A DNA stretch of 24,263 bases from a virus, in IMG/VR virus record IMGVR_UViG_3300028393_000325, positions 1 through 24,263 of that record. One strand, 5' to 3'. Each line of letters begins with the position of its first letter. Positions within the stretch are counted from its first letter, which is position 1. The notes beneath the pieces are model-generated. The model had not been told where the DNA came from and made no database searches. It saw nothing but the letters and a program-made list of their open reading frames with translations. A program made the translations under genes and the position numbers. Shown piece by piece: positions 8,958 through 24,263 of the stretch.

Positions 8958-9647
8958 CTAAAGTCCTAATTCTGCTCTTACTTGTTGGATATGTGCCTTA
9001 CCAATCGAATCATGGTCTGATGGTCTGCCTATTCCACTCATTGTTACCCTGCCGTATCCAATGTCATAAATACAACGAACGGTTGTCGCGTGAAAGGGTT
9101 TCGCTCCAGCTGCTACACAACGAATGTAAAGTTCCCAGTCATCAAATATTGCGCCTTTAGTATGTCCACCAGTTCGTTCAAATAACTCTCGCTTGATTGG
9201 TGCAGAACCGGGGCAGGTCATTTGGCTAGGTATCAATTCAGGAATCCATCGACCTTCCATAATTGAACCATCATGCTTCAGTTGTAACTTGTCAATGTAG
9301 ATATCGCATCCTTTTGCATCGGCTTGATCTAGTTCATCGAATGCGCCCGGTAGATAGCAGTCATCAACACCAATAAGCGAGAACCAATCGGCAGTTTGTT
9401 CTGTTTGGATTCTAAGCATGAAGTCTGCAAACTCGCCTTCCATCTCGATAATCTTGGTTATGTTTTTATACTTTTGTGGAATCGCTGAATGCACTAATTC
9501 TTTATTTTGTGCATCGTGCGCAAGCACTATTGAATCTGGTTGCCTAAGAAGTGATTGAACACCTGTCCAATAGGTAGGCAAAAACTCACTATAAGTTGTG
9601 CCAAATAAACAAACACCTAAACCAAGTGTTAATGAATCACTTTTCAT
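8958..9647 (-). CDS. GT-A type glycosyltransferase
   Basis: A 229-residue protein. ATG 9647 overlaps the preceding stop (ATGA). A TTG further upstream exists but lacks a reason to be used. The fold pattern is GT-A/GT2-like. The N-terminal strand LGLGVCLFGTTYSEFLPTYW is followed by SIVLAHD. A DD pair in SLIGVDDCYLPGAF could bind the nucleotide-sugar metal, and AIFDDWELYIRCVAAGAKPF resembles the acceptor/catalytic ED region. It is the third gene of a coupled sugar-transfer cassette, so it probably adds a sugar to a virion glycan or host surface structure. Donor and acceptor cannot be told. Confidence 0.8.
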   Translation of the reverse strand: MKSDSLTLGLGVCLFGTTYSEFLPTYWTGVQSLLRQPDSIVLAHDAQNKELVHSAIPQKYKNITKIIEMEGEFADFMLRIQTEQTADWFSLIGVDDCYLPGAFDELDQADAKGCDIYIDKLQLKHDGSIMEGRWIPELIPSQMTCPGSAPIKRELFERTGGHTKGAIFDDWELYIRCVAAGAKPFHATTVRCIYDIGYGRVTMSGIGRPSDHDSIGKAHIQQVRAELGL

Positions 9648-10447
9648 TGTTGCACCAATCGCCAAAAGGTATCCCCTGCATTATCGATCATGTGTCTTAA
9701 GTGATCCGCATCTGCCCAATCTTCAACGCTGGTAATTCCTACATTCTCATTTGTGTGAATCCTGCAACCAGAAAGAACAGCTTCCATAACTGCGCGACAT
9801 TCTGATTCAAATGCTAAAGGTAAATGAACAAACCATTCTGATCTAGCCATTGCATCTAATACTTCATCACGTGATACGTTACTAAGTGCTTTGAATTTGT
9901 AACCTGCCTGCGATGCCCAAATCTCTGCTTTTAGTTTTCCTTTTAGTGGATGACTACGCGCTGCCCATAATGCAAACGGTTGTTTGTCCAAATGGTCATA
10001 ACATTTAGAAGTGTCAAAGTAGCTTAGAACCTGCGCCGTCTTGCGTGGCTTTGCCCAAGATAATTCTCTGCGCATATGTGCCGGGGTATGGGTTACGAAT
10101 AAGCGACTGCCTGCGATCAAGGCCAACAATCCTGCGCGTGGGGTTTGTAGGTGATGCACGAACACGAATGGGTCATACTGACTCAGGCGGTTCAGCTGCT
10201 GTTCTGTGAACAAGTCTGTACCTGTTACAACTATCGAATCGAATTGGTCTAGGTCATACACATCGAAGGTATATGGCGTGACTATCTGAATGTTAAAGTC
10301 CAAAGGTGCTTGCAAGCGGTATTCGTAATCTGACATTTCTGCCCCACCTGCGAACTGCCCTGTGAATAGTCCTGAAACGCTCTCAGACGAACGTAGAGCC
10401 ACGTTAGGGTCATTCTCTATGTGATGTGTATACCAACCTATTTTCAT
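9644..10447 (-). CDS. GT-B type glycosyltransferase (GT4-like), short
   Basis: A 267-residue protein. The start at 10447 (MKIGWYTHH) overlaps the preceding stop as ATGA and is preferred over a longer frame starting at 10501. The N-terminal domain is reduced, with FDSIVVTGTDLFTEQQLN and FVFVHHLQTPRAG. The C-terminal half shows LWAARSHPLKGKLKAEIW and SEWFVHLPLAFESECRAVME, where FESECRAVME holds an E-x7-E pair typical of GT4 retaining enzymes. At 267 residues it is shorter than usual GT4 enzymes (about 350-400), so it is a minimal or divergent member. It probably acts with the two flanking transferases. Confidence 0.8.
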   Translation of the reverse strand: MKIGWYTHHIENDPNVALRSSESVSGLFTGQFAGGAEMSDYEYRLQAPLDFNIQIVTPYTFDVYDLDQFDSIVVTGTDLFTEQQLNRLSQYDPFVFVHHLQTPRAGLLALIAGSRLFVTHTPAHMRRELSWAKPRKTAQVLSYFDTSKCYDHLDKQPFALWAARSHPLKGKLKAEIWASQAGYKFKALSNVSRDEVLDAMARSEWFVHLPLAFESECRAVMEAVLSGCRIHTNENVGITSVEDWADADHLRHMIDNAGDTFWRLVQQ

Positions 10448-11625
10448 GCTGTAGGGCGTTCTGTGCCTTTTGCACCAATTACTTCTAAAGCAGGTTTCCA
10501 ATGTTTGTTGAAAACGTAATCTGCGTTATAGCCACTTGCAAACTCGATTGCCTTTTCTGATCTACCGCGCCCACGTTGGTAAGCCTGTTCTAGTGCATCG
10601 ACAATTCCGGGAACGCTAGGCATATGAAACCAAGCAGATTGTGGTGCATCCCATAAAGGCTGACCATCAACTAACCAACCATCACCAACGAGTTCCGTTG
10701 AAGCTGCAAAGTCAGAAACGATTACGGGAGTTCCACAAGCCTGCGCTTCAACTGTTGGAACTCCAAAGCCTTCGCCGTAGCTAGTGGCAAGTAAAACATC
10801 CATAGCGGTATAAAGCGTTGCCAAAGTAGGTTGATCTATTCCTGTTCTAAGTAGATAAGGATCAACAAATGAATACTGGTGTTCTTTGATTCCACAAGAT
10901 AAAATAAGTTCTTGAAGTTTGATTCCGCCTAATGAACCACTTGCGTCTGTATGTAGGTATAGAACAACGTCATCGTGCATCTGCGCGAACATACTAAACG
11001 CCAGAATGTTTTCACCAAATGCTTTGCGATTAGGTGATACACCTTTGTTAGCCGCATTCATTCCAACAATAAATACATCGTCACTAGCACCAATAAAATC
11101 TCTGCCAGTTGTTCCCTTGTGTCGCTTCATTGGCTTAAATGCTGAATCAACTGCATGAGGAATATATAACGCTTCGATACCTACGTTTTCTAACATGGCC
11201 TGCCCGTACTGGCTCATTGCAATTGGGGTAACAAAATCCTGTCTGCACCATGCTGCAACTTGTGGTGGTGCTGGAATGTGATCAACTGGAACCCAACTAG
11301 CAACATTCCAATCTGACCAACGCTTACCCTTTAGAACCCACGCATCGTAAAGAGTAAATAGAATGTGATTTTGTTTTGGGTTACGTTGCGCCCAATCAAA
11401 CATATGAGCAGGAATCACATCATTGGAATACATATCTGCACCGCGTTGATAAATTGGGATGCCGTTCCATTCGCTATTGCTACCTTCAAGTCCATAGTTA
11501 TTGAAGATTGCTACGTTGTGATTCATTGCTTTCATACGGCTAGTAACTTGAGCAGTTGCAACTCCGTAGCCTGTGTTCGCCCAAGGCGCGTTAGACACCC
11601 AACCAATACATAAAGAATCCTGCAC
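10444..11625 (-). CDS. GT-B type glycosyltransferase (GT4-like), full length
   Basis: A 393-residue enzyme. The N-terminal Rossmann-like domain starts LCIGWVSNAPWANTGYGV, typical of the acceptor-side loop. The linker region has YIPHAVDSAFKP, and the C-terminal donor domain has FIVGMNAANKGVSPNRK. The E-x7-E signature is E285 and E293 in TSYGEGFGVPTVEAQACGTP. It should transfer a sugar from an activated nucleotide donor. The gene lies behind the strong capsid terminator, so it needs its own promoter or read-through. It heads the ATGA-coupled cassette of three transferases. Confidence 0.9.
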   Translation of the reverse strand: MQDSLCIGWVSNAPWANTGYGVATAQVTSRMKAMNHNVAIFNNYGLEGSNSEWNGIPIYQRGADMYSNDVIPAHMFDWAQRNPKQNHILFTLYDAWVLKGKRWSDWNVASWVPVDHIPAPPQVAAWCRQDFVTPIAMSQYGQAMLENVGIEALYIPHAVDSAFKPMKRHKGTTGRDFIGASDDVFIVGMNAANKGVSPNRKAFGENILAFSMFAQMHDDVVLYLHTDASGSLGGIKLQELILSCGIKEHQYSFVDPYLLRTGIDQPTLATLYTAMDVLLATSYGEGFGVPTVEAQACGTPVIVSDFAASTELVGDGWLVDGQPLWDAPQSAWFHMPSVPGIVDALEQAYQRGRGRSEKAIEFASGYNADYVFNKHWKPALEVIGAKGTERPTA

Positions 11626-13081: not shown

Positions 13082-14176
13082 TTACAAGGCTTTTAGCATT
13101 AGATCAAGTTGCTTACGCTTAATCTCAAGTAGATCATTTTGATTAGGTTCTTGTGAACGCAATTTGGAAACAACTTCACTAATCAAATCTGCGTGATTAG
13201 CTTCTAAAGTTTCACCTGCTTCTAGTCTTGAGATCGCATCGCTTAATGCATCTACATCTACGGCAGTACGAGTTGCAAGAATGTCTAATGAACGAACGCT
13301 TGCAGTTGTCGCTTCGTAAGCAGGGAATCCAGTAACAATAGAAACTTCATGTAAACGAACTTGGTTCAGTTCACGAGTGTTTCCATCTTGACTCCATGTA
13401 TCACCTTTAGGTGGAACACTAAAGCCAAATGACATTGAAGATACATCGCCACGTTTCATAAGCACAGATAGATCGCGCCCGGCAGTTGTATCTGGTAAAT
13501 CGGCAGTTGCTAGTAATCCGCGTGAATCTTCAGTTAGTCGCAAAGTTCCAGCACGAGTTGAACCTAGAACTACGTCTGTATTGTGGTTCATAAATAGTTT
13601 AATTTCATTGCGCGACTTTAGAGAACGCTTAAATGCGCCTTCTTTGATGACTTCAGTAAACGGCAATGGCTCACTAGGGGAATTGAATACGGCTGCGTAT
13701 CCTGTAAAACTCATACCATCGCTTGATGATTCAGCTGCTCGAATGTCAAACTCAACATTATTAACGCGGCGTTCTACCGTTGTTTCCATTGACTGCCCTT
13801 CTTTACTTCTTAAGTTTAGCGTTACTGACTTCCATCTAGAATTCATCTCTGCAACAGTTTCAACCATAGGTTCTTGAATCCCTAAGTAACTTTCAGGAAT
13901 TACCCAAAGTTTGCAGATTGCTTCAGGCTCAATCATCCCTTCGACAATCTGACATTGTTGAGCATTCTCGTTATAGAAAACACAATTGTTACAAACAAGA
14001 CCATCTGCCTTAAATGGATTATTAGACGCAGGTGCGTAGTGCGCTCCATCTGCATCTGTTGATTGATTGAACATTCCATATTCCAATGCAAGATTTGCTT
14101 GATTTTCAGCCTGCTCTTGTTGGCGTTCGTTAAGTAAATCCCATTCAGCTATATCGCGTACTTCATAACTGGTCAT
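13082..14176 (-). CDS. Probable nested product: prohead protease with four-Cys segment
   Basis: ATG 14176 is in frame with the 667-residue gene (residue 304) and has TAGGAGCAAAACA directly before it. This is nearly the same ribosome-binding sequence as for the tail-tube gene (AGGAGCAAAACAGC) and the 2434 tail gene (AGGAGTAAAACA). A second possible start at 13789 (residue 433) has AAGGG 6 bases upstream and would give the bare 235-residue protease, close to the classical HK97 gp4 size. The 364-residue product would keep the four-Cys segment and protease but lose the HAD part. Expression is inferred from the site alone. Confidence 0.5.
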   Translation of the reverse strand: MTSYEVRDIAEWDLLNERQQEQAENQANLALEYGMFNQSTDADGAHYAPASNNPFKADGLVCNNCVFYNENAQQCQIVEGMIEPEAICKLWVIPESYLGIQEPMVETVAEMNSRWKSVTLNLRSKEGQSMETTVERRVNNVEFDIRAAESSSDGMSFTGYAAVFNSPSEPLPFTEVIKEGAFKRSLKSRNEIKLFMNHNTDVVLGSTRAGTLRLTEDSRGLLATADLPDTTAGRDLSVLMKRGDVSSMSFGFSVPPKGDTWSQDGNTRELNQVRLHEVSIVTGFPAYEATTASVRSLDILATRTAVDVDALSDAISRLEAGETLEANHADLISEVVSKLRSQEPNQNDLLEIKRKQLDLMLKAL

Positions 14177-15085
14177 TGTTTTGCTCCTATTTGTTTGATC
14201 AATTTTAACGCGATTAGAAACGCTTTGTGCATAATCTAGAACTCGTTGTGCTTGTCTGCGGTTTGAACCTGATCCCCAAAGTAAATGAGCAACCACGCCC
14301 GGACTTGGATAATTAGGGGAATCTGGTTTTGCATCTGGCGAATCCAGATCGCCAATGTGTCGTGCAATCCAAGCTGCTAGTCGAACCCATTTATCATCTG
14401 AAACTTTTCCATCTGCCATAAGTCGTGCTTCGCGTATAGTTCTTTCAACTAAACCTTGACCGCCTTTTCCTTCTGCATAATAAGCAAGACCACGCCTAGC
14501 GTTGGCTCTCATGTAAGCAGGTGCATCCTGATTTATGGCGCGAGATTCTAAACTTCGTGTCATTGGAACATCCGTAACATTTAGAGCAGTAATTCCTAGA
14601 TCACGATAAGCGGCGCGATTATTGGCATTGTTATCTATTGCAAGAATGACGTTGTATTCCTTAAGCAATGATTCTGCTGTCGCTTTCTTAAATGCAACTG
14701 TATCTGCTGAGCTTCCGGGATTCATAAATAAACGATTATATTTCACGCCTAAAGATTTTAGTTCTGCACTAGTTTCATCTCGTGTTGAATTATTGCGCCC
14801 TGTAACTATAAAAATTTTCGTATCAGTCATTGCTTTTATATAGTCATTAGTTTTTTGAATCAAACGACCACCAGAAATAAGTGTTCCGTCAATGTCCACA
14901 ATTACAGCTAATGGGCCAGAATCAATACGTTCACCGCCGGGTTGCATATCCTCAGCTAGTGAAACTGCAACCATCTGATCGACTGCATCTTGCTTTGTAG
15001 CATGACAACCAATGACTTCGCCATCTTCTTTTATAGTTGCCCAACCTGCACAATCTTGTGCCTTATCTGTTATGAAGTAAGGCAT
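13082..15085 (-). CDS. Multi-domain prohead protease with N-terminal HAD phosphatase
   Basis: A 667-residue protein starting by TAATG overlap with the fibre gene. Order of parts: residues 1-50, a small module with GWATIKEDGEVIGCHATK; 58-172, a HAD phosphatase with DIDGT (D64, D66), IVTGR (T95), K133/K134 and AIDNN (D151), near to polynucleotide 3'-phosphatase types; 188-296, a helical module with WIARHIGDLDSP and PGVVAHLLWGSGS; 365-391, four cysteines (C365, C368, C378, C391) in CNNCVFY and EPEAICKLWVIPE; 440-590, HK97 (U35) prohead protease with probable H501 in FMNHN and S552 in SSMSFGFSVP. The protease trims capsid and itself during maturation. What the HAD part does is unknown. Usual proteases are about 200 residues. 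Confidence 0.9.
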   Translation of the reverse strand: MPYFITDKAQDCAGWATIKEDGEVIGCHATKQDAVDQMVAVSLAEDMQPGGERIDSGPLAVIVDIDGTLISGGRLIQKTNDYIKAMTDTKIFIVTGRNNSTRDETSAELKSLGVKYNRLFMNPGSSADTVAFKKATAESLLKEYNVILAIDNNANNRAAYRDLGITALNVTDVPMTRSLESRAINQDAPAYMRANARRGLAYYAEGKGGQGLVERTIREARLMADGKVSDDKWVRLAAWIARHIGDLDSPDAKPDSPNYPSPGVVAHLLWGSGSNRRQAQRVLDYAQSVSNRVKIDQTNRSKTMTSYEVRDIAEWDLLNERQQEQAENQANLALEYGMFNQSTDADGAHYAPASNNPFKADGLVCNNCVFYNENAQQCQIVEGMIEPEAICKLWVIPESYLGIQEPMVETVAEMNSRWKSVTLNLRSKEGQSMETTVERRVNNVEFDIRAAESSSDGMSFTGYAAVFNSPSEPLPFTEVIKEGAFKRSLKSRNEIKLFMNHNTDVVLGSTRAGTLRLTEDSRGLLATADLPDTTAGRDLSVLMKRGDVSSMSFGFSVPPKGDTWSQDGNTRELNQVRLHEVSIVTGFPAYEATTASVRSLDILATRTAVDVDALSDAISRLEAGETLEANHADLISEVVSKLRSQEPNQNDLLEIKRKQLDLMLKAL

Positions 15086-17958
15086 TAGTTAGCCAACTTC
15101 TCTAGGGTTGCGTATTCAAATGTGTAAGTGTTTGAAGCGTTGCCAGAAATGATTGTTGCTTCAACTTGATTGGCAACAGTTGTATTGACTGCTACAGCCG
15201 TTGTAAATGAGTTATCTCCACCAGTTGTAGTTACGTCAATCTTTCCAACACCGCCAACAGTTCCAGATGAGCCAGAAGTACGAACAGTTACCAATGCTTC
15301 AAACTTGTAAACGCCAGTAGTTGTTGAGGTTGTTGTTGTAGAGAATGGTTGGTTTCCAGTTAATGTTGTTGTACCAATGCGAATCCTAAAAGTGGTAGTT
15401 GCTGCGTTTGCGCCAGCACGAGTTGCATAACCGACAAATCTAAATGTATCGCCAGCAACAATGCTGTTAGCAGCGGCAGTAAATCCAACAATGCGAGTTT
15501 CAGTATTAGCAATAGCGGATGTGGCGGCAGTTAGTTTTGCAACAAGTCTGTCAGAGTTTGCCTGAACATATTCAGTGGTAGCAATTCGAGTGCTGTTGGT
15601 TGCTCTTGCAGCCGTTGTTGCTAATGGTGCACCAGTTAATGATGGACTATTAAGTTTTGCATAACCTTGTGAAATGACATATTCAGTCGTAGCAATCTGT
15701 GTGGTATTGGTATCAACAGCAGCAGTAGTTGATAACGGAGTTCCAGTAAGGGTTGGGCTTGCAAGTTTTGCGTAGTTTTGATTTAAAACAAAAGCAGTAG
15801 TAGCAAGTTGTGTTGTAGCGGTATCAACGGCAGCAGTTGCCGCAGTTGGTATGCCATTTAATTGAATGTTGGTTGTTGCACCAGATACAGTAGAACCAAT
15901 GGTTATATTTGTAGTTGAACCAGAAAGACCTTGTGTTCCAATGCTTACTGACTTAACAACACCTGAAGGTGTAGCACCACCAAATAAAAGTAATGATTTT
16001 GTTGCAGTAGACGTAGACCCAATGGAAAGATTATTTGCTGCACCGCCAACATTTAATGATGTTGCTGTTGTATTAAACAAATCAAATGATGTTGAAGATG
16101 TGTTTAAACTTGTAGTAAAAGTTGGACTTGCTGTTCCAGCCTTGGAATCTAACTGTGTTTGTATTGAAGAAGTTACTCCATCTAAATAACCTATTTCAGT
16201 TGCACTTACGGTACCGATTGAAGTACTGCTAGGTAACTCTACATACCCAAATAATGCGATTGTTCCCTGCGGCGTATAATTAGGAGTACCAATTCTTATT
16301 AGTTTGTAATTACTTCCAGATCCAGAAGTAATAGCACCAGTACCTATGTTTATTACATGTCTTACTGAACTACCACTATCAACAGCCTCAAGATTTCTAA
16401 CTGAATAGTTATCCTCTACGGCTATTTCACCAGAAACAGTAGCATAACTTGAGCCACCACTTAGTATGTTATTAGTTCCACCCGTTTGTGGATATACATA
16501 ATTAGCAACATTACCAAGAGATAAATTATCTGTACCAGTAAATGCAGAAAATGTTGCGCCACCAAGAACACTTGTAGTTAGTGTTGGACTTGTTCCAAAA
16601 ACTAAAGAACCAGTTCCCGTTTCATTTGAAATAACTCCAGCAAGTTCTGCGGAAGTGGTTGCAGCAAACTGAGATAACTTACCAGCCGTTATAGCTTTAG
16701 CAGCTAAGTCGGTAGTTAGACTCGTAACTTGTGATTGCGCAATTGTGATTGGATCGCTACCTGCACTTGCGTGAGAACTAGCATGAGAAGTTGGCGTTCT
16801 AGAATCGCTTAGTCGTGAGTCAGTTGTAATAACTGCTGTGCCAGATACTTTAGTTGGGTCAATAGCCGCACTTGCGTTAATGTCTGCGTTAACTATTGTT
16901 CCATCTACTATTTTTGCAGAAGTAACAGAGTTATCTACCGGAGTGCGTTGGTCAGATAATCTAGCATCAGTTGTAATTACCGCCGTACCTGTCACCTGAC
17001 TTGGAGTAATAGCCAAAGCAGTTTGATCTATACCAATGGTCGCAGCTGAACTTGTACCTGAGTTAGTTATAGGTGCGGTTACTGCTACAACACCGCTTGC
17101 GCCCTGAACACCTTGAGTTCCCTGAATGCCCTGGATACCTTGTGGGCCTTGTGCGCCAGTTGCTCCAGTTGGGCCTTGTGGGCCTACGTTACCAACTGAA
17201 ACAATGATAAATAGAACAGCATGATTATTGGAAAAGTTAGTTGTTCCAACTCCACCCGAAGCAATTAAAGTTACTGGAAATGAATCCCATGTTGAATTGT
17301 AAGTGGGTGTTCCCGATACTTCCCACTTTTGATAATTGGCTGAATCATTTTGATCTTGAATGATAAGAACATCGTATTGATTTATTAGATCAAGAAACAC
17401 GCTATCGTCTTGAGCATCGGCATCTAAATGGCTAACTCTTAGTGCAGTAGAACTTACCTGTGTCGTATTATTCCAACCAAGATTGTTACTTGTCGGATCA
17501 CCACTTGTTGAAGTTGTTTTAGCTTTGTAGTGATAATGCGTAGAGCTTCCACCTGAAGTTCCTTGTGGCCCCGTTGCGCCTGTATCGCCTTTATCACCTT
17601 TAAGTCCTTGAATGCCTTGAATGCCTTGAATGCCTTGAGAACCAGTTGCGCCAGTTGCTCCCGTAGCACCAGTTGCACCAGTAGCACCAGTATCGCCTTT
17701 AGGCAAAACCAAGTTAAGAACTTGTGCAGGTGTCGTGCCTGTGATTGTTGCGCTAGCTGTTACGCCGCCCGTAACTGTTCCAACTGATAAAACATTAGAT
17801 GGCCCGGTTGCACCTGTTGCACCTGTCGCACCTTGAACGCCAACATTTGAAGTCGTTATTTCAGCATTTGTTTCAGTTACCGAAATTGTTGCAGACGTAT
17901 CAGAAGTAACTACTATGCTTGCATTTGTTTCTGCAATAACGATAGTTGAATCTGACAT
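15085..17958 (-). CDS. Collagen-like fibre protein
   Basis: A 957-residue protein, coupled on both sides by TAATG. Residues 1-36 are a short beta repeat. Gly-x-y collagen-like blocks lie at about 40-53, 88-134 and 257-289, separated by a globular part (140-255) with LRVSHLDADAQDDSVFLDLI. Later come two copies of GTAVITTD(A/S)RLSD(Q/S)RTP, then phage-fibre repeats with ATTAFV/ATTEYV near 700-800, and a beta-rich C-terminal domain (about 803-957). This is a trimeric fibre, likely binding a receptor or surface. Its place between portal and capsid protease, not behind the tape measure, is unusual and leaves open a head or neck fibre. Confidence 0.88.
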   Translation of the reverse strand: MSDSTIVIAETNASIVVTSDTSATISVTETNAEITTSNVGVQGATGATGATGPSNVLSVGTVTGGVTASATITGTTPAQVLNLVLPKGDTGATGATGATGATGATGSQGIQGIQGIQGLKGDKGDTGATGPQGTSGGSSTHYHYKAKTTSTSGDPTSNNLGWNNTTQVSSTALRVSHLDADAQDDSVFLDLINQYDVLIIQDQNDSANYQKWEVSGTPTYNSTWDSFPVTLIASGGVGTTNFSNNHAVLFIIVSVGNVGPQGPTGATGAQGPQGIQGIQGTQGVQGASGVVAVTAPITNSGTSSAATIGIDQTALAITPSQVTGTAVITTDARLSDQRTPVDNSVTSAKIVDGTIVNADINASAAIDPTKVSGTAVITTDSRLSDSRTPTSHASSHASAGSDPITIAQSQVTSLTTDLAAKAITAGKLSQFAATTSAELAGVISNETGTGSLVFGTSPTLTTSVLGGATFSAFTGTDNLSLGNVANYVYPQTGGTNNILSGGSSYATVSGEIAVEDNYSVRNLEAVDSGSSVRHVINIGTGAITSGSGSNYKLIRIGTPNYTPQGTIALFGYVELPSSTSIGTVSATEIGYLDGVTSSIQTQLDSKAGTASPTFTTSLNTSSTSFDLFNTTATSLNVGGAANNLSIGSTSTATKSLLLFGGATPSGVVKSVSIGTQGLSGSTTNITIGSTVSGATTNIQLNGIPTAATAAVDTATTQLATTAFVLNQNYAKLASPTLTGTPLSTTAAVDTNTTQIATTEYVISQGYAKLNSPSLTGAPLATTAARATNSTRIATTEYVQANSDRLVAKLTAATSAIANTETRIVGFTAAANSIVAGDTFRFVGYATRAGANAATTTFRIRIGTTTLTGNQPFSTTTTSTTTGVYKFEALVTVRTSGSSGTVGGVGKIDVTTTGGDNSFTTAVAVNTTVANQVEATIISGNASNTYTFEYATLEKLAN
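17560..17700 (-). repeat. Tandem 9-base repeats coding collagen triplets
   Basis: The fibre gene holds tandem 9-base units in this stretch. On the plus strand, about four copies of GCCTTGAAT type units lie at 17606-17639 (Gly-Ile-Gln repeats), and copies of GCACCAGTT type units lie at 17641-17695 (Gly-Ala-Thr repeats). Such runs can gain or lose units by slippage while keeping the frame. Confidence 0.8.
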
Positions 17959-19808: not shown

Positions 19809-21323
19809 CTAGAAACTAAAGAACTGTGGCACAACGGGTTCTTCACGCGAAACAGTTGCCCTATCAAATCCTATGATACTAGCAACGGCGGCATCTATCT
19901 TTCGTGGCGAACCACGATGTTCTTTCACGATGCGTGGCCCTAGTCTGTCGGTCTTAACAACTGCGTTCTGCAAGTGACGTAGAAGCAACGGATTTCCATC
20001 ATGCGTGAGTTTCCCAGACACAACTGCATCATAAAACTTTGAACACGCCGGAACCATGCGAGCAGGTGAAGTTGAAGGCCATTCGACTATTGGAAATCCT
20101 GCTTCATCTAGAACCTGCATTGTGCGTTGCCAACGGAAAGGGTCACACGCAATTTCTCTTACATTTTGTGTGCCACAGAATTCAATGATTGTATTTTCTA
20201 CTTCTAAAATGTCCACTCGCCAATCGTCTTGATCTTCAGGTTGCTTTTCCCATGCCTTGACCATAAAGACATACGGCTGTTCTTCACAAGTAACGCCGAC
20301 AATAACTGAAGCATCACCGCTAAACGAACCATCGAAACCTAAGACAACTGGAACGTCTGGATCAATAGTGCGTTTAACTTCTAGTTGTTCCCATGCTCCG
20401 TTAGGTAGCCATGCCATTTGACTACTCACCCATTGATTGCATCGCTTAGTTCTGAACTCTGCTTCTGGCGTTCGCTTGACCATAGCTGCAAAATCTTTAG
20501 GATCATTGAGATCACCAAATGCCGGGTTTGCTTGTTTCCAAGTTGATTCGAGATGATGATCTGCTTCGCCTTCTGCTTCCCACCATGCCATAAAGAAACT
20601 GGTATCAACAACTTCCTTCTGTGCCACACGCTTTCCGTATTGGTAAAGGTTGTAAGCGATTGAATCTTGACCAGTTGAATCAGCTTTGACTCCAGCGGTT
20701 GTTAATGAGATCAACATTGGTTCACGCCTTGCGCCCATTCCAAGTTGCATAACGTCAAACAGTTCGCGGTTGGGTGATGCGTGAAGTTCGTCAAATATAA
20801 CGCAGGTTGGACTTAGACCTTCTTTGGAATAAGACTCACTTGAAAGAACACGATATACAGAACCAGTTGCCGGTACTTCTATGGCATCGCGGTACACGTT
20901 GCAAATTTCTGCAAGTTCTGGTTCTGCTTCAATCATTCTCTTAGCATCGCTGAACACAATACGCGCCTGATCTTTGTCAGCTGCACAAGAATAAACTTCG
21001 CCACCTGCCGGCCCCATGATCAATGACCAAAGACCAATGCCAGAACCTAATGCGGATTTACCGTTCTTGCGAGCCATGCCAATTAGCGCGGTGCGGTGTC
21101 TAAACTTTCCATCTGCGCCAACGGCAAACAAATGCCTAAACAATTCATGCTGCCAAGGTCGAAGTTGCATCTTGTCACCTGCATACCCGGCAACAGTTTC
21201 CTTAGTTTGGATAGCAAACGTGTCTATAAAGTCAGACACTTGCGAGCCACGCGATTTGGTAAGCGCAGCTTTGTTAACAGGTGTTAGCCAAGTTGGTGGC
21301 CAAGATTCAATTTTGGCTGGCAC
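19809..21323 (-). CDS. terL: Terminase large subunit
   Basis: A 504-residue packaging motor. The ATPase part has Walker A GMARKNGKS (82-90), Walker B VIFDE (175-179) and coupling motif SLTTAG (206-211). The RNase H-like nuclease part has D331 and D337 in GFDGSFSGDAS, D394 in IACDPFRWQ and D477 in RKIDAAVAS. An adenine-binding-like segment LRPWQHELF (54-62) precedes it. It overlaps the small subunit by 17 bases. It belongs to the Terminase_1/HK97-like group, often used by cos phages. Together with the portal it moves DNA into proheads and cuts concatemers. Confidence 0.96.
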   Translation of the reverse strand: MPAKIESWPPTWLTPVNKAALTKSRGSQVSDFIDTFAIQTKETVAGYAGDKMQLRPWQHELFRHLFAVGADGKFRHRTALIGMARKNGKSALGSGIGLWSLIMGPAGGEVYSCAADKDQARIVFSDAKRMIEAEPELAEICNVYRDAIEVPATGSVYRVLSSESYSKEGLSPTCVIFDELHASPNRELFDVMQLGMGARREPMLISLTTAGVKADSTGQDSIAYNLYQYGKRVAQKEVVDTSFFMAWWEAEGEADHHLESTWKQANPAFGDLNDPKDFAAMVKRTPEAEFRTKRCNQWVSSQMAWLPNGAWEQLEVKRTIDPDVPVVLGFDGSFSGDASVIVGVTCEEQPYVFMVKAWEKQPEDQDDWRVDILEVENTIIEFCGTQNVREIACDPFRWQRTMQVLDEAGFPIVEWPSTSPARMVPACSKFYDAVVSGKLTHDGNPLLLRHLQNAVVKTDRLGPRIVKEHRGSPRKIDAAVASIIGFDRATVSREEPVVPQFFSF

Positions 21324-21756
21324 GAGCCTTCAGTTCTTCTAACTTAGATGCACGTTTGACTTCAGCTACGCCAAGTCTTGAACGGTCTGTTGGCGTGAAT
21401 CCTAAAAGTGACAAGTTAGCAACTAACTGACGGTCAAGGTCGCGCAAGGCTTTGCGTTCATCTGGTCTGTTGTTTTGCAAAACCTGAATGCGCAAGTTAC
21501 GGCGTTCGTCTAATAATTCACAAGTCATAAGAAGAATCTCAATGTCGGTTAATGGGCTTAACCACGTTTGTCCCATTCCCCAAATACGTTCCCAAAGTTC
21601 TGTTCCGGCAGAACCTAATGGGCGGTTAGGTTCTGGAATGTCATAAGCAGAAGGCAACAGCACAAGTTCTTTTTGGTCTGGCAATGTACGTTTGCCTGGG
21701 TTGCCAGTAAGCCGTTTCTGTTCAATCGGTTTTGGTGGTCTGCCACGCGGAGCCAT
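21307..21756 (-). CDS. terS: Terminase small subunit, P27 family
   Basis: A 149-residue basic protein. The start GRPPKPIEQKRLTGNPGKR is the P27-family signature, and the helical remainder has GTELWERIWGMG and TDIEILLMTCELLDERRN. It ends with a helix that oligomerises in relatives. It recognises the packaging site and guides the large subunit. A GAGGA site lies in the last codons of the methyltransferase gene, 7 bases before the ATG. It overlaps the large subunit by 17 bases. Confidence 0.93.
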   Translation of the reverse strand: MAPRGRPPKPIEQKRLTGNPGKRTLPDQKELVLLPSAYDIPEPNRPLGSAGTELWERIWGMGQTWLSPLTDIEILLMTCELLDERRNLRIQVLQNNRPDERKALRDLDRQLVANLSLLGFTPTDRSRLGVAEVKRASKLEELKARASQN

Positions 21757-21759
21757 TGT

Positions 21760-22839
21760 TTAGTCCTCTAACAGTTGTGCTTCTAGACCAGTTTGTTTTT
21801 CTAATCTATCAAGTATGACATCAACATATTTTGGGTCGAGTTCAACACCAAAGGCTTGCTGACCATTTCTATCTGCTGCTAACAGAGTTGAACCGCTTCC
21901 TGAAAATACATCAAGTATTTTTGCGCCTTTGTCAATAAATGAAACGCACCAATCCATAACCGGTGATGGCTTCATTGTGACGTGTTGTTTCGTTTCACCA
22001 GACCAATGATGTTCCAACAATCTAGTTTGCTTTCCTAGATTTGTCCAAGCCAATTCAAACTCGCTAAATGAAACATTAGCAATTTTTTTGTACCAACAAA
22101 GCCAATGATTATTAACAGGCAACTGATCTGTAAAATAATTGCCTCCCCAAATAATTGCTTTTGGAGCTAGATTTAGAATGAAAGTAACATCTGGTTTAAA
22201 TGAATCCCAATCTCCTCTATGAAATTCTTTTTTTCCATTTCCTAAAGTTTGCTTGTCTGCATTTATTCCATAGGGAGGATCTGTAATTACAGCATCAAAT
22301 GTTGTACCAAACCTATTAATAACATTTTGATCAGATGAGTCACCGCAAATAACATGATGCTTTCCAATCACCCAATGGTCACCTAGCTTTGCTCTTGTAG
22401 GAGCATCTTCAAAAGACAAGGGGTCATCGTTATCATCTTGAGCAACTGGCGGTTCTAGATTCTCAAATCCAAGTTCCTCAAGCTCCCAACCATTGGCATC
22501 AAGTTCAAGTAACTGATCTGCAAGAACCTTGTCATCCCATTCAGCAAGTTCTGCGGTGCGGTTGTCAGCTAGTGCGAAGGCGCGTATCTGTTCCCAACTC
22601 CAACCAATCGGAGTTCTGGCAATTACGATTTCAGTCCAGCCCAAATTCTTTGCAGCTTCTAGTGTGCCGTTGCCGGCAACCACGATTGAGTCGGGCGTTA
22701 CGCAGATTGGTTTGCGTTGCCCAAATTTAAGAAGTGAGTTCTCGATTGCTTGCAGGTTTCGCGCATCATGTTTACGCGCATTCACCGGGTCTGGTGTCAG
22801 GCTGCTGATCGCAACGGTTTCAATTTTCAAATCGGTCAT
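21760..22839 (-). CDS. ParB-like domain fused to DNA methyltransferase
   Basis: A 359-residue protein. Residues 1-100 are a ParB/sulfiredoxin-like domain (ISSLTPDPVNARKHDARNLQ, IVVAGNGTLEAAKNLG). After an acidic linker, the methyltransferase starts about residue 150 (GDHWVIGKHHVICGDS). The catalytic motif is DPPY (187-190), and the AdoMet motif FSGSGS lies at 312-317, after DPPY, so the order is of the beta class. DPPY favours N6-adenine; N4-cytosine is possible. No restriction partner is next to it, so protection of phage DNA or marking of the packaging region is likely. No strong ribosome-binding site is seen. Confidence 0.92.
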   Translation of the reverse strand: MTDLKIETVAISSLTPDPVNARKHDARNLQAIENSLLKFGQRKPICVTPDSIVVAGNGTLEAAKNLGWTEIVIARTPIGWSWEQIRAFALADNRTAELAEWDDKVLADQLLELDANGWELEELGFENLEPPVAQDDNDDPLSFEDAPTRAKLGDHWVIGKHHVICGDSSDQNVINRFGTTFDAVITDPPYGINADKQTLGNGKKEFHRGDWDSFKPDVTFILNLAPKAIIWGGNYFTDQLPVNNHWLCWYKKIANVSFSEFELAWTNLGKQTRLLEHHWSGETKQHVTMKPSPVMDWCVSFIDKGAKILDVFSGSGSTLLAADRNGQQAFGVELDPKYVDVILDRLEKQTGLEAQLLED

Positions 22840-22965
22840 GAATTGAGTCTAATCAAAAACCGCATAAAACCGCCATTTTTTCAAATCGGGAATTTCGCGG
22901 AGATGTGCAAAAGTTTGGGTCGGGGTATGCTGTGTCAAACCTATGTGAGATTTTGACCCACTCCC
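22840..22965 (-). promoter_or_regulatory. Leader upstream of the methyltransferase-terminase genes, candidate promoter
   Basis: A 126-base gap between the HNH stop and the methyltransferase start. On the minus strand a perfect TTGACA (22938-22933) is present, with AACTTT at 17-base spacing (22915-22910), a weak -10. A 12-base sequence CCGATTTGAAAA occurs at 22889-22878 in the leader and again at 22835-22824 inside the first codons of the gene. No convincing terminator or additional gene is seen. Confidence 0.3.
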
Positions 22966-23289
22966 CTATTTTTCTGGTGGATTATTGCCACGCCTTGAGT
23001 TACATGACCTATGAGCTGCGATAAGTGGACTAGATGGATCGCCCGGATAGTAATGGTCAGCCGTAAACGGATCATCTAATCTACGGCCTTGACCGCATAA
23101 CCAACAGACTGTTGCCGTATCCCTAACGATCTTTGCCTGCTTCTGATAAGAACCCTTGTAATGCGGTCTAGTAGCGTTCCTAGTGGCATCTGCGACCTTC
23201 TGACAGTCGTTACAGAGTGATGGGTTGCGGTGTAAGGCTTTGCACTTTAGGCAGGGTTTATTGAACGGCACGTTGCATAACTTTGCCAT
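22966..23289 (-). CDS. HNH endonuclease
   Basis: A 107-residue protein. An N-terminal zinc-like pair (C-x2-C in PCLKCKAL, then CNDC) is followed by a basic stretch, then CWLCGQGRRLDDPFTADHYYP, where the DH is the first catalytic part. AAHRSCNSRRGN supplies the last His and Asn-type residues. ATG 23289 overlaps the hydrolase gene by 32 bases. A GTG at 23271 giving VPFNKPCLKC is plausible because relatives often begin MPF. HNH nucleases next to terminases help cohesive-end cutting in several phages. Confidence 0.88.
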   Translation of the reverse strand: MAKLCNVPFNKPCLKCKALHRNPSLCNDCQKVADATRNATRPHYKGSYQKQAKIVRDTATVCWLCGQGRRLDDPFTADHYYPGDPSSPLIAAHRSCNSRRGNNPPEK

Positions 23290-23818
23290 TGGCGTAACTG
23301 CGGTACTGGTCTATGGTTCCCCTAGTGTTGGGGTCGTGCATTGAAGAACATTCCATCGCTCGTAGCGCAGATAGATCATGGTTCTTGTTCCAGTCTGGTT
23401 TGTATTGCTTGTCAGCTAATGAACCCAATGCAAGGTTCGCTCCCGATCCAATAGCCCAGTAAGGGCTGGCAGATAGAACACTTAAGTCCTCATTGATTAA
23501 GAATGACTTGCCATGCGTTACAAGGATTGCTTCAGCATCCATCTCTTTATCTTTAACAACGTGATCAATTAACGGGATCACTTTATTTATTAACCACTTA
23601 AGCCATACGCCAGACTTAACAACATCTAATGGCGGTTTAGGGTATTCAATGCCGTACTGCAACTGATCGCACAGTCTTGCGCTACCTGCAACACCAATTA
23701 GCCAAGTATCTTGTTGAACTATCTTCTTCATGTCAGGATGAATAACGTCTGAAGTTATACCCTGATCTGCTGTTAATGTGCAGAAGTTGTTGCCGGTTGT
23801 GGTGATGATCGTTGTCAT
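23258..23818 (-). CDS. HslV/proteasome-like Ntn hydrolase
   Basis: A 186-residue protein. After Met removal it begins TTI as HslV does, with T1 as nucleophile, D17 in TADQG and K30/K31 in DMKKI standing close to HslV's T1, D17 and K33. The G-x-A-G of WLIGVAGSA matches the HslV Gly45 region, and YWAIGSGANLALGSL matches the conserved IGSGG serine loop. Length (186) is near HslV's 175. The family makes ring-shaped threonine proteases fed by an ATPase (HslU). No ATPase is in the window, so it may act alone, use a host ATPase, or have a changed function. Similar phage proteins may be annotated as proteasome-like. Confidence 0.8.
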   Translation of the reverse strand: MTTIITTTGNNFCTLTADQGITSDVIHPDMKKIVQQDTWLIGVAGSARLCDQLQYGIEYPKPPLDVVKSGVWLKWLINKVIPLIDHVVKDKEMDAEAILVTHGKSFLINEDLSVLSASPYWAIGSGANLALGSLADKQYKPDWNKNHDLSALRAMECSSMHDPNTRGTIDQYRSYANGKVMQRAVQ

Positions 23819-23830
23819 GCGCTTAGTCTA

Positions 23831-23944
23831 TTAAGGTCTAAGGCTTGTCTTGTCTATCGACACATTGGCAGCTTGTAAGCATTCCCAATAACTATCGTGG
23901 TCTTGTGTGTCGCATCCAGCGCGGCAGATACCGTTGGCTTCCAT
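23831..23944 (-). CDS. Small Cys-rich phage protein (37 residues)
   Basis: ATG 23944 overlaps the previous stop (TAATG) and the frame ends at TAA 23833-23831. It reads ICRAGCDTQDHDSYWECLQA, then ends in NVSIDKTSLRP. The pattern C-x3-C, QDH, SYxECL, then AANV..DKT is common, in my memory, among tiny actinophage proteins of unknown role, some of them near terminase genes. It is short but the overlap and family look make it real. The three cysteines and one histidine could bind a metal. Confidence 0.7.
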   Translation of the reverse strand: MEANGICRAGCDTQDHDSYWECLQAANVSIDKTSLRP

Positions 23945-24126
23945 TACTTATCCCCGTCTAATGCCTGAATAGTTGCACAAGGCATACGAATCATTCCATC
24001 TGGCATACATTCCATGCAAATACCTGCACCATTTGGTTTATGCAATTCACGCACACGCTCAATGGATTCATTAGCCTTTGATAATGCAATCGCTACTTCT
24101 TCAATAACTTGTGCAAGAAACAACAT
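23944..24126 (-). CDS. Small protein with C-x2-C motif (60 residues)
   Basis: Residues 1-30 form one amphipathic helix (VIEEVAIALSKANESIERVR). The second half has ICMECMPDGMIRMPCATIQA, with three cysteines and a H29 upstream that could form a small zinc site. The ending PCATIQAL resembles the PCPT(I/V)xAL tail of many actinobacterial phage and host mini-proteins. Start and stop both lie in TAATG overlaps with neighbours. Function unknown; nucleic-acid or protein binding is plausible. Confidence 0.72.
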   Translation of the reverse strand: MLFLAQVIEEVAIALSKANESIERVRELHKPNGAGICMECMPDGMIRMPCATIQALDGDK

Positions 24127-24152
24127 TACTTCACCGTCAATGGTTTAGTCAT
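24126..24152 (-). other. Eight-codon linking ORF (possible coupling peptide)
   Basis: ATG 24152 overlaps the stop of the HNH-type frame (TAATG), codes MTKPLTVK, and its TAA overlaps the next ATG (TAATG). It may only let ribosomes carry on to the following gene. No ribosome-binding site is evident. Confidence 0.3.
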
Positions 24153-24263
24153 TAGTCATCCCAACTATTCTTAAGCCAGCCTTCAGATTTACCTTGTGCC
24201 GGGTTCTGTGTAATAAACGTGTGACATGGTCTGCAAAGCAATGCAAGGTTATCCCTGTCTGCA
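24152..24263 (-). CDS. Partial HNH-type protein, C-terminal end
   Basis: An open frame enters from the right edge and stops at TAA 24154-24152, giving 36 visible residues. It reads RDNLALLCRPCHTFITQN then GWLKNSWDD. The NLALLC-x2-CH segment is the typical second half of an HNH nuclease (Asn-Leu-x-x-Leu-Cys-x-x-Cys-His). The start and first catalytic His are outside the window. Confidence 0.65.
   Translation of the reverse strand, partial: ADRDNLALLCRPCHTFITQNPAQGKSEGWLKNSWDD

Follow-up and report, generated by a model that had tools for sequence, protein, structure and literature searches.

Why does a virus encode a proteasome-type peptidase beside its DNA packaging genes? The question is raised by the window, a 24,263-nt stretch of the IMG/VR virus record IMGVR_UViG_3300028393_000325, in which a sequence-only reading had described an HslV-like threonine protease at 23258–23818. 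The open reading frame is real, but it lies on the minus strand; on the plus strand, the same interval contains many stop codons. The predicted protein begins Met-Thr-Thr-Ile, with Thr1 directly after the start methionine. No propeptide is visible, and the start codon adjoins Thr1 in the family members that cover the start. The motifs first described are present, counted after the methionine: T1, T2, I3, D17, K30/K31, G-V-A-G and IGSG.

The protein matches the Pfam Proteasome family (PF00227; E 2.3e-5; 24.5 bits, above the gathering cut-off of 22.4) and, over residues 1–173, PHROG 1040, the 'peptidase HslV family' (E 8.6e-17). The PHROG 1040 profile also matches bacterial and archaeal control genomes, and is thus a broad one. 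As a single phmmer query against the PDB the peptidase gave weak matches only; a profile of its family (A3) matched HslV and BPH (E 1e-7 to 1e-6). No match to the HslV equivalog was found at E 0.01 (NCBIfam). Sequence and model together make it very nearly certain that the predicted product is an Ntn peptidase of proteasome fold whose active site is intact. Assignment to HslV proper was rejected, as no HslU was found in the relatives surveyed, the equivalog is not matched and the tree separates the protein from cellular HslV. Thus, the earlier classification stands for a proteasome-type peptidase with an intact active site, but not for HslV in the strict sense.

An AlphaFold model based on 53 aligned sequences (pLDDT 91.1, pTM 0.88) has the Ntn alpha-beta-beta-alpha fold of proteasome beta subunits; a model from a 40-sequence alignment (pLDDT 47) was set aside and the broader alignment used instead. 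Proteasome beta chains and BPH are among the Foldseek matches. VIA-align superposes the model on the T. acidophilum proteasome beta subunit with Z 20.6 and rmsd 3.0 over 177 residues, and on BPH with Z 19.7 and rmsd 2.5 over 166 residues. The aligned ranges begin at ORF residue 2 and chain residue 1, so that Thr1 is superposed on Thr1. Helices at residues 64–69 and 72–87 occupy the place of H2. The best viral structure models are those of a Caudovirales protein (44% identical) and then of a phage protein named HslV. Structure prediction, which had been proposed as a check on the fold, thus points to a proteasome-like protein and assigned no different fold. A family missing from the structural ranking was not counted as evidence.

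In the active site, K31 is invariant and is the equivalent of the catalytic lysine (Lys33), position 30 is variable (K, P, H, L and others), and the oxyanion position is Gly44, within G-V-A-G. The close family keeps T1, T2, D17, K31, G-V-A-G and IG(S/T)G. Among 109 distinct phage homologues, with identity down to about 26%, those covering each site retain T1 (107/107), T2 (107/107), D17 (107/107), K31 (108/108) and Gly44 (109/109), most of these homologues having been fetched by motif seeds, some of which contain the catalytic residues. Relatives fetched via terminase also keep the catalytic residues. Loss of Thr1 or of the lysine was not observed in any homologue that covers them. Cellular relatives are mostly Ser1. 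Purifying selection on the gene is strong, as judged from dN/dS values of 0.06–0.11 against ten relatives, for which dS is partly saturated.

We identified 24 close relatives in IMG/VR (77–92% identical). The nearest relative in a deposited phage, at 35% identity, is that of ct2KA10 (OX376641). Nine of the ten contigs of at least 25 kb that were found by TerL encode the peptidase; it is missing from the tenth, L188 (34 kb), and from Pontimonas phage phiPsal1. Thus, the gene is common but dispensable. In the tree, the window family is a long branch by itself (support 100/100) within a phage group of moderate support (90/92). Cellular HslV and the Guernseyvirinae are placed on other branches, and support is weak at deep nodes.

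Genes of the PHROG 1040 type occur just before the holin and endolysin genes in Guernseyvirinae, near the right end and with HNH in Arthrobacter phages Hum25 and Pitbull, adjoining WhiB in phage DSL-LC01, and among unrelated genes in large phages. Microbacterium phage WaterT encodes one in addition to a capsid maturation protease. A scan of genome collections recovered distant cellular relatives only (Planctomycetes, Gamma- and Alphaproteobacteria, many with Ser1), and a class-level search gave weak matches only. No actinobacterial chromosomal copy was found in the motif-seeded genome-collection scan, an absence that carries little weight. One cellular Ser1 homologue, in a Thiotrichales MAG (L109, 8001–8594), is encoded inside an apparent riboflavin gene cluster. 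Among those in MAGs L113 and L116–L118, several are from Planctomycetes and follow a sugar-isomerase-like gene.

The peptidase gene adjoins the packaging genes, as the sequence-only reading had placed it (Table 1). The order in relatives is WhiB, SSB, small genes, a 98-aa gene, peptidase, HNH, ParB-like/methylase, TerS, TerL and portal, and HNH follows the peptidase at every locus that reaches far enough. Judged from relatives, the HNH gene probably starts at the GTG at 23271. Many related contigs stop just before or begin just after the sequence CCCGACCCA. Because these contig ends flank it, we infer a cos site there, and the linear genome would therefore end with the peptidase and HNH genes. 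The pattern suggests a cos with a 3' overhang that is lost in end repair. No sigma-70-type promoter was found in 22700–24263.

Table 1 Positions of the peptidase gene and of other features in the window.
Feature	Position	Strand	Basis or remark
Proteasome-fold (HslV-like) Ntn-threonine peptidase, 186 aa	23261..23818	-	Stop codon at 23258–23260; Pfam, PHROG, model
Small HNH endonuclease, overlapping the end of the peptidase gene	22966..23289	-	PHROG 338, E 2.9e-7; downstream in 29/29 loci
Putative cos, about 9 nt, CCCGACCCA, between the HNH and ParB-like genes	22916..22924	-	Ends of related contigs
ParB-like domain fused to N6/N4 DNA methylase	21760..22839	-	First gene left of the putative cos
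Terminase small subunit (P27-like)	21307..21756	-	TIGR01558, E 4.9e-7, below the curated cut-off; position
Terminase large subunit	19809..21323	-	57% identical to TerL of Pontimonas phage phiPsal1
HK97-type S78 prohead protease with N-terminal HAD-like phosphatase domain	13082..15085	-	One 667-aa ORF; HAD_PNKP, E 4.6e-8

The 98-aa gene upstream of the peptidase, which has a weak RHH match, is present at 26 of 31 loci; it was rejected as an obligatory partner because neither the window nor its nearest relative, L001, was seen to have it near the peptidase gene. Several of these phages, among them that of the window (23944–24126, minus strand), L002 and L258, also encode near the peptidase gene a small protein of a recurring type, with a motif resembling 'ELHKP ... 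C..C ... PC.TI'.

The sequence-only reading had held that this phage encodes two unrelated peptidases. This is borne out by a separate S78 prohead protease, in which HAD_PNKP spans residues 59–171 and S78 residues 446–599, and an M23 endopeptidase is encoded as well. S78 was identified in the window; each of the 12 related contigs that were tested has it as well, even L188, in which no peptidase gene was found. Since S78 is present even where the peptidase is missing, the latter is unlikely to mature heads; this role was rejected as unlikely on the indirect test that S78 is always present in the window lineage.

Between the portal and prohead protease genes, the head module encodes a 957-aa protein with collagen-like repeats (15085–17958, minus strand); at this position phiPsal1 encodes no more than a short hypothetical protein. 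Directly after the capsid gene are one or more glycosyltransferase-type genes (8958–11625, minus strand), and phiPsal1 likewise has glycosyltransferase genes there. A group 1 glycosyltransferase at 10444–11625 is confirmed by Pfam, and the other two ORFs of this interval have no Pfam match.

By TerL and capsid (46% identical) the closest phage is phiPsal1, whose host is an actinobacterium. Because of this relationship, and because relatives of the window phage carry WhiB, its host is probably also actinobacterial, and the phage would be a freshwater actinophage.

The peptidase was said to have no ATPase partner, and none was found in the relatives surveyed: AAA and AAA_2 unfoldase domains were not identified in 15 relatives of 29–35 kb (virus records, possibly fragments), nor was AAA_2 in six other peptidase-carrying phages. 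A host HslU could still serve as partner. As none of 13 records has a second PF00227 gene, there is no gene pair for 20S-type alpha and beta subunits. Given a single subunit gene of the family per genome, any ring would be a homo-oligomer.

The peptidase of ct2KA10 has M-TTI, D17, HPDM.K, G.AG and IG[ST]G, and its phage is also a probable actinophage, by WhiB. Relatives of the ct2KA10 type are encoded in 199 IMG/VR stretches. In the loci read among phages of this type (L027/L108 and L028–L107), the gene is directly behind the portal and shortly before a gene whose product is very large (1,711 aa in ct2KA10). Unlike the window lineage, which has S78, ct2KA10 has no S78 protease and has different head genes. 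The H3–H4 loop is 11 residues longer in the window family than in the ct2KA10 family. The H3–H4 region makes double-ring contacts in proteasomes, and the longer loop in this putative contact region makes a ring less than certain.

The reading that we prefer, and hold to be somewhat more likely than not, is that the peptidase cuts proteins during infection, within the host cell and with no unfoldase encoded by the phage. Removal of the methionine would expose Thr1, which would act with Asp17, the Lys33 equivalent and the oxyanion glycine, as predicted from sequence and model. The product would be a homo-oligomeric accessory peptidase that is active inside the infected cell, and may cut host or phage proteins that are fully or partly unfolded, with no ATPase of its own, by analogy with what is suspected for BPH and for the uncapped 20S core. 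Alternatively, it may borrow an AAA+ unfoldase of the host to be fed. The neighbors of the gene vary by lineage (HNH and cos, after the portal, before holin and endolysin, next to WhiB), and an accessory intracellular role thus fits better than a fixed role in the virion. The trimming of virion proteins, one of the roles named in the sequence-only reading, is not supported as the leading role. On the other side, the constant place beside cos and HNH/terminase, and that directly behind the portal in a second lineage, could point to a role in morphogenesis.

The accessory distribution and varied position of the gene, the intact and strongly constrained active site and the lack of an identified phage unfoldase would also suit a counter-defense or host takeover function, in which a specific host defense or regulatory protein is destroyed, possibly with feeding by host unfoldases of the ClpX, ClpC or Mpa type. 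We consider this rather unlikely, as no target or defense context is seen, the sequence is unusually constant, and the gene is present in most members of the group (9/10 of the TerL-found contigs above), unlike fast-changing counter-defense genes. It is unlikely that terminase, portal, HNH or an ejected protein is a substrate of the peptidase in late assembly. The constant HNH neighbor and the adjoining terminase genes and putative cos are consistent with such a packaging or virion-assembly protease, as is the second actinophage group, where the gene is between the portal gene and that of a very large, probable virion protein and ct2KA10 is without S78. However, S78 is always present in the window lineage, at least one near relative (L188) is without the peptidase, and the corresponding gene precedes the lysis genes in Guernseyvirinae and is among unrelated genes in large phages.

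Very improbable is a specific amidase or ligase of proteasome fold in place of a general protease. The proteasome superfamily does include a ligase, connectase (Fuchs, Alva & Lupas, 2021; PMC8665760), no unfoldase was found and the branch of the window family is divergent. However, the connectase-type S3/S4 helical insertion is missing, with no helices there in the model, and all of the usual proteolytic residues are retained. It also seems quite improbable that freshwater actinophages have, on two or more occasions, made a proteasome-fold peptidase part of their late program, where it acts on proteins of assembly or packaging. If it were true, a relative of the proteasome would serve virion morphogenesis, beside cos and HNH in the window lineage and behind the portal in the S78-less phages of the ct2KA10 type.

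These findings add to the phage proteasome homologues a conserved subfamily, catalytically intact by sequence, from abundant environmental and probably actinobacterial phages. Being small, encoded at a constant position, limited to one subunit and seemingly unaccompanied by an unfoldase, it lends itself to tests for ATPase-free action and for substrates.

The peptidase shares with HslV (ClpQ) its fold, the Thr-Thr-Ile mature N-terminus and the IGSG motif, but it differs in the lack of an identified HslU partner and of an equivalog match, and in its separate place in the tree. The likeness of the model to BPH (5ovs, 5ovt) and the 20S beta subunit (Z-scores above) is accompanied by an identity of about 15–16%, and the window phage has no alpha subunit gene. 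Two kinds of phage proteasome homologue, PPH and AAH, have been described; neither has a known function or an AAA+ partner that occurs with it (Fuchs, Alva & Lupas, 2021; PMC8665760), and a literature search found no paper on what phage homologues do. The window peptidase resembles both in being a compact phage homologue that has no propeptide and for which no accompanying AAA+ partner was found. PPH, of about 140 residues, is missing helix H2 (PMC8665760), whereas the window protein has 186 residues and retains H2 in the model; thus it is not a PPH. No AAH was found in actinobacteria-specific phages by Fuchs, Alva & Lupas (2021; PMC8665760). The window family, Arthrobacter phage Hum25, Microbacterium phage WaterT and DSL-LC01 indicate that actinophages carry related peptidases, whether or not these are AAH.

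Phage HslV-like peptidases are thus already known, from PHROG 1040, from PPH and AAH and from annotated phage genes, and the window family is its own branch. It shares the catalytic set with PHROG 1040, which is annotated in phages of Arthrobacter, Microbacterium, E. coli, Salmonella and Klebsiella, and is distinguished from it by a long, fully supported branch of its own, a longer H3–H4 loop and a location at HNH and cos.
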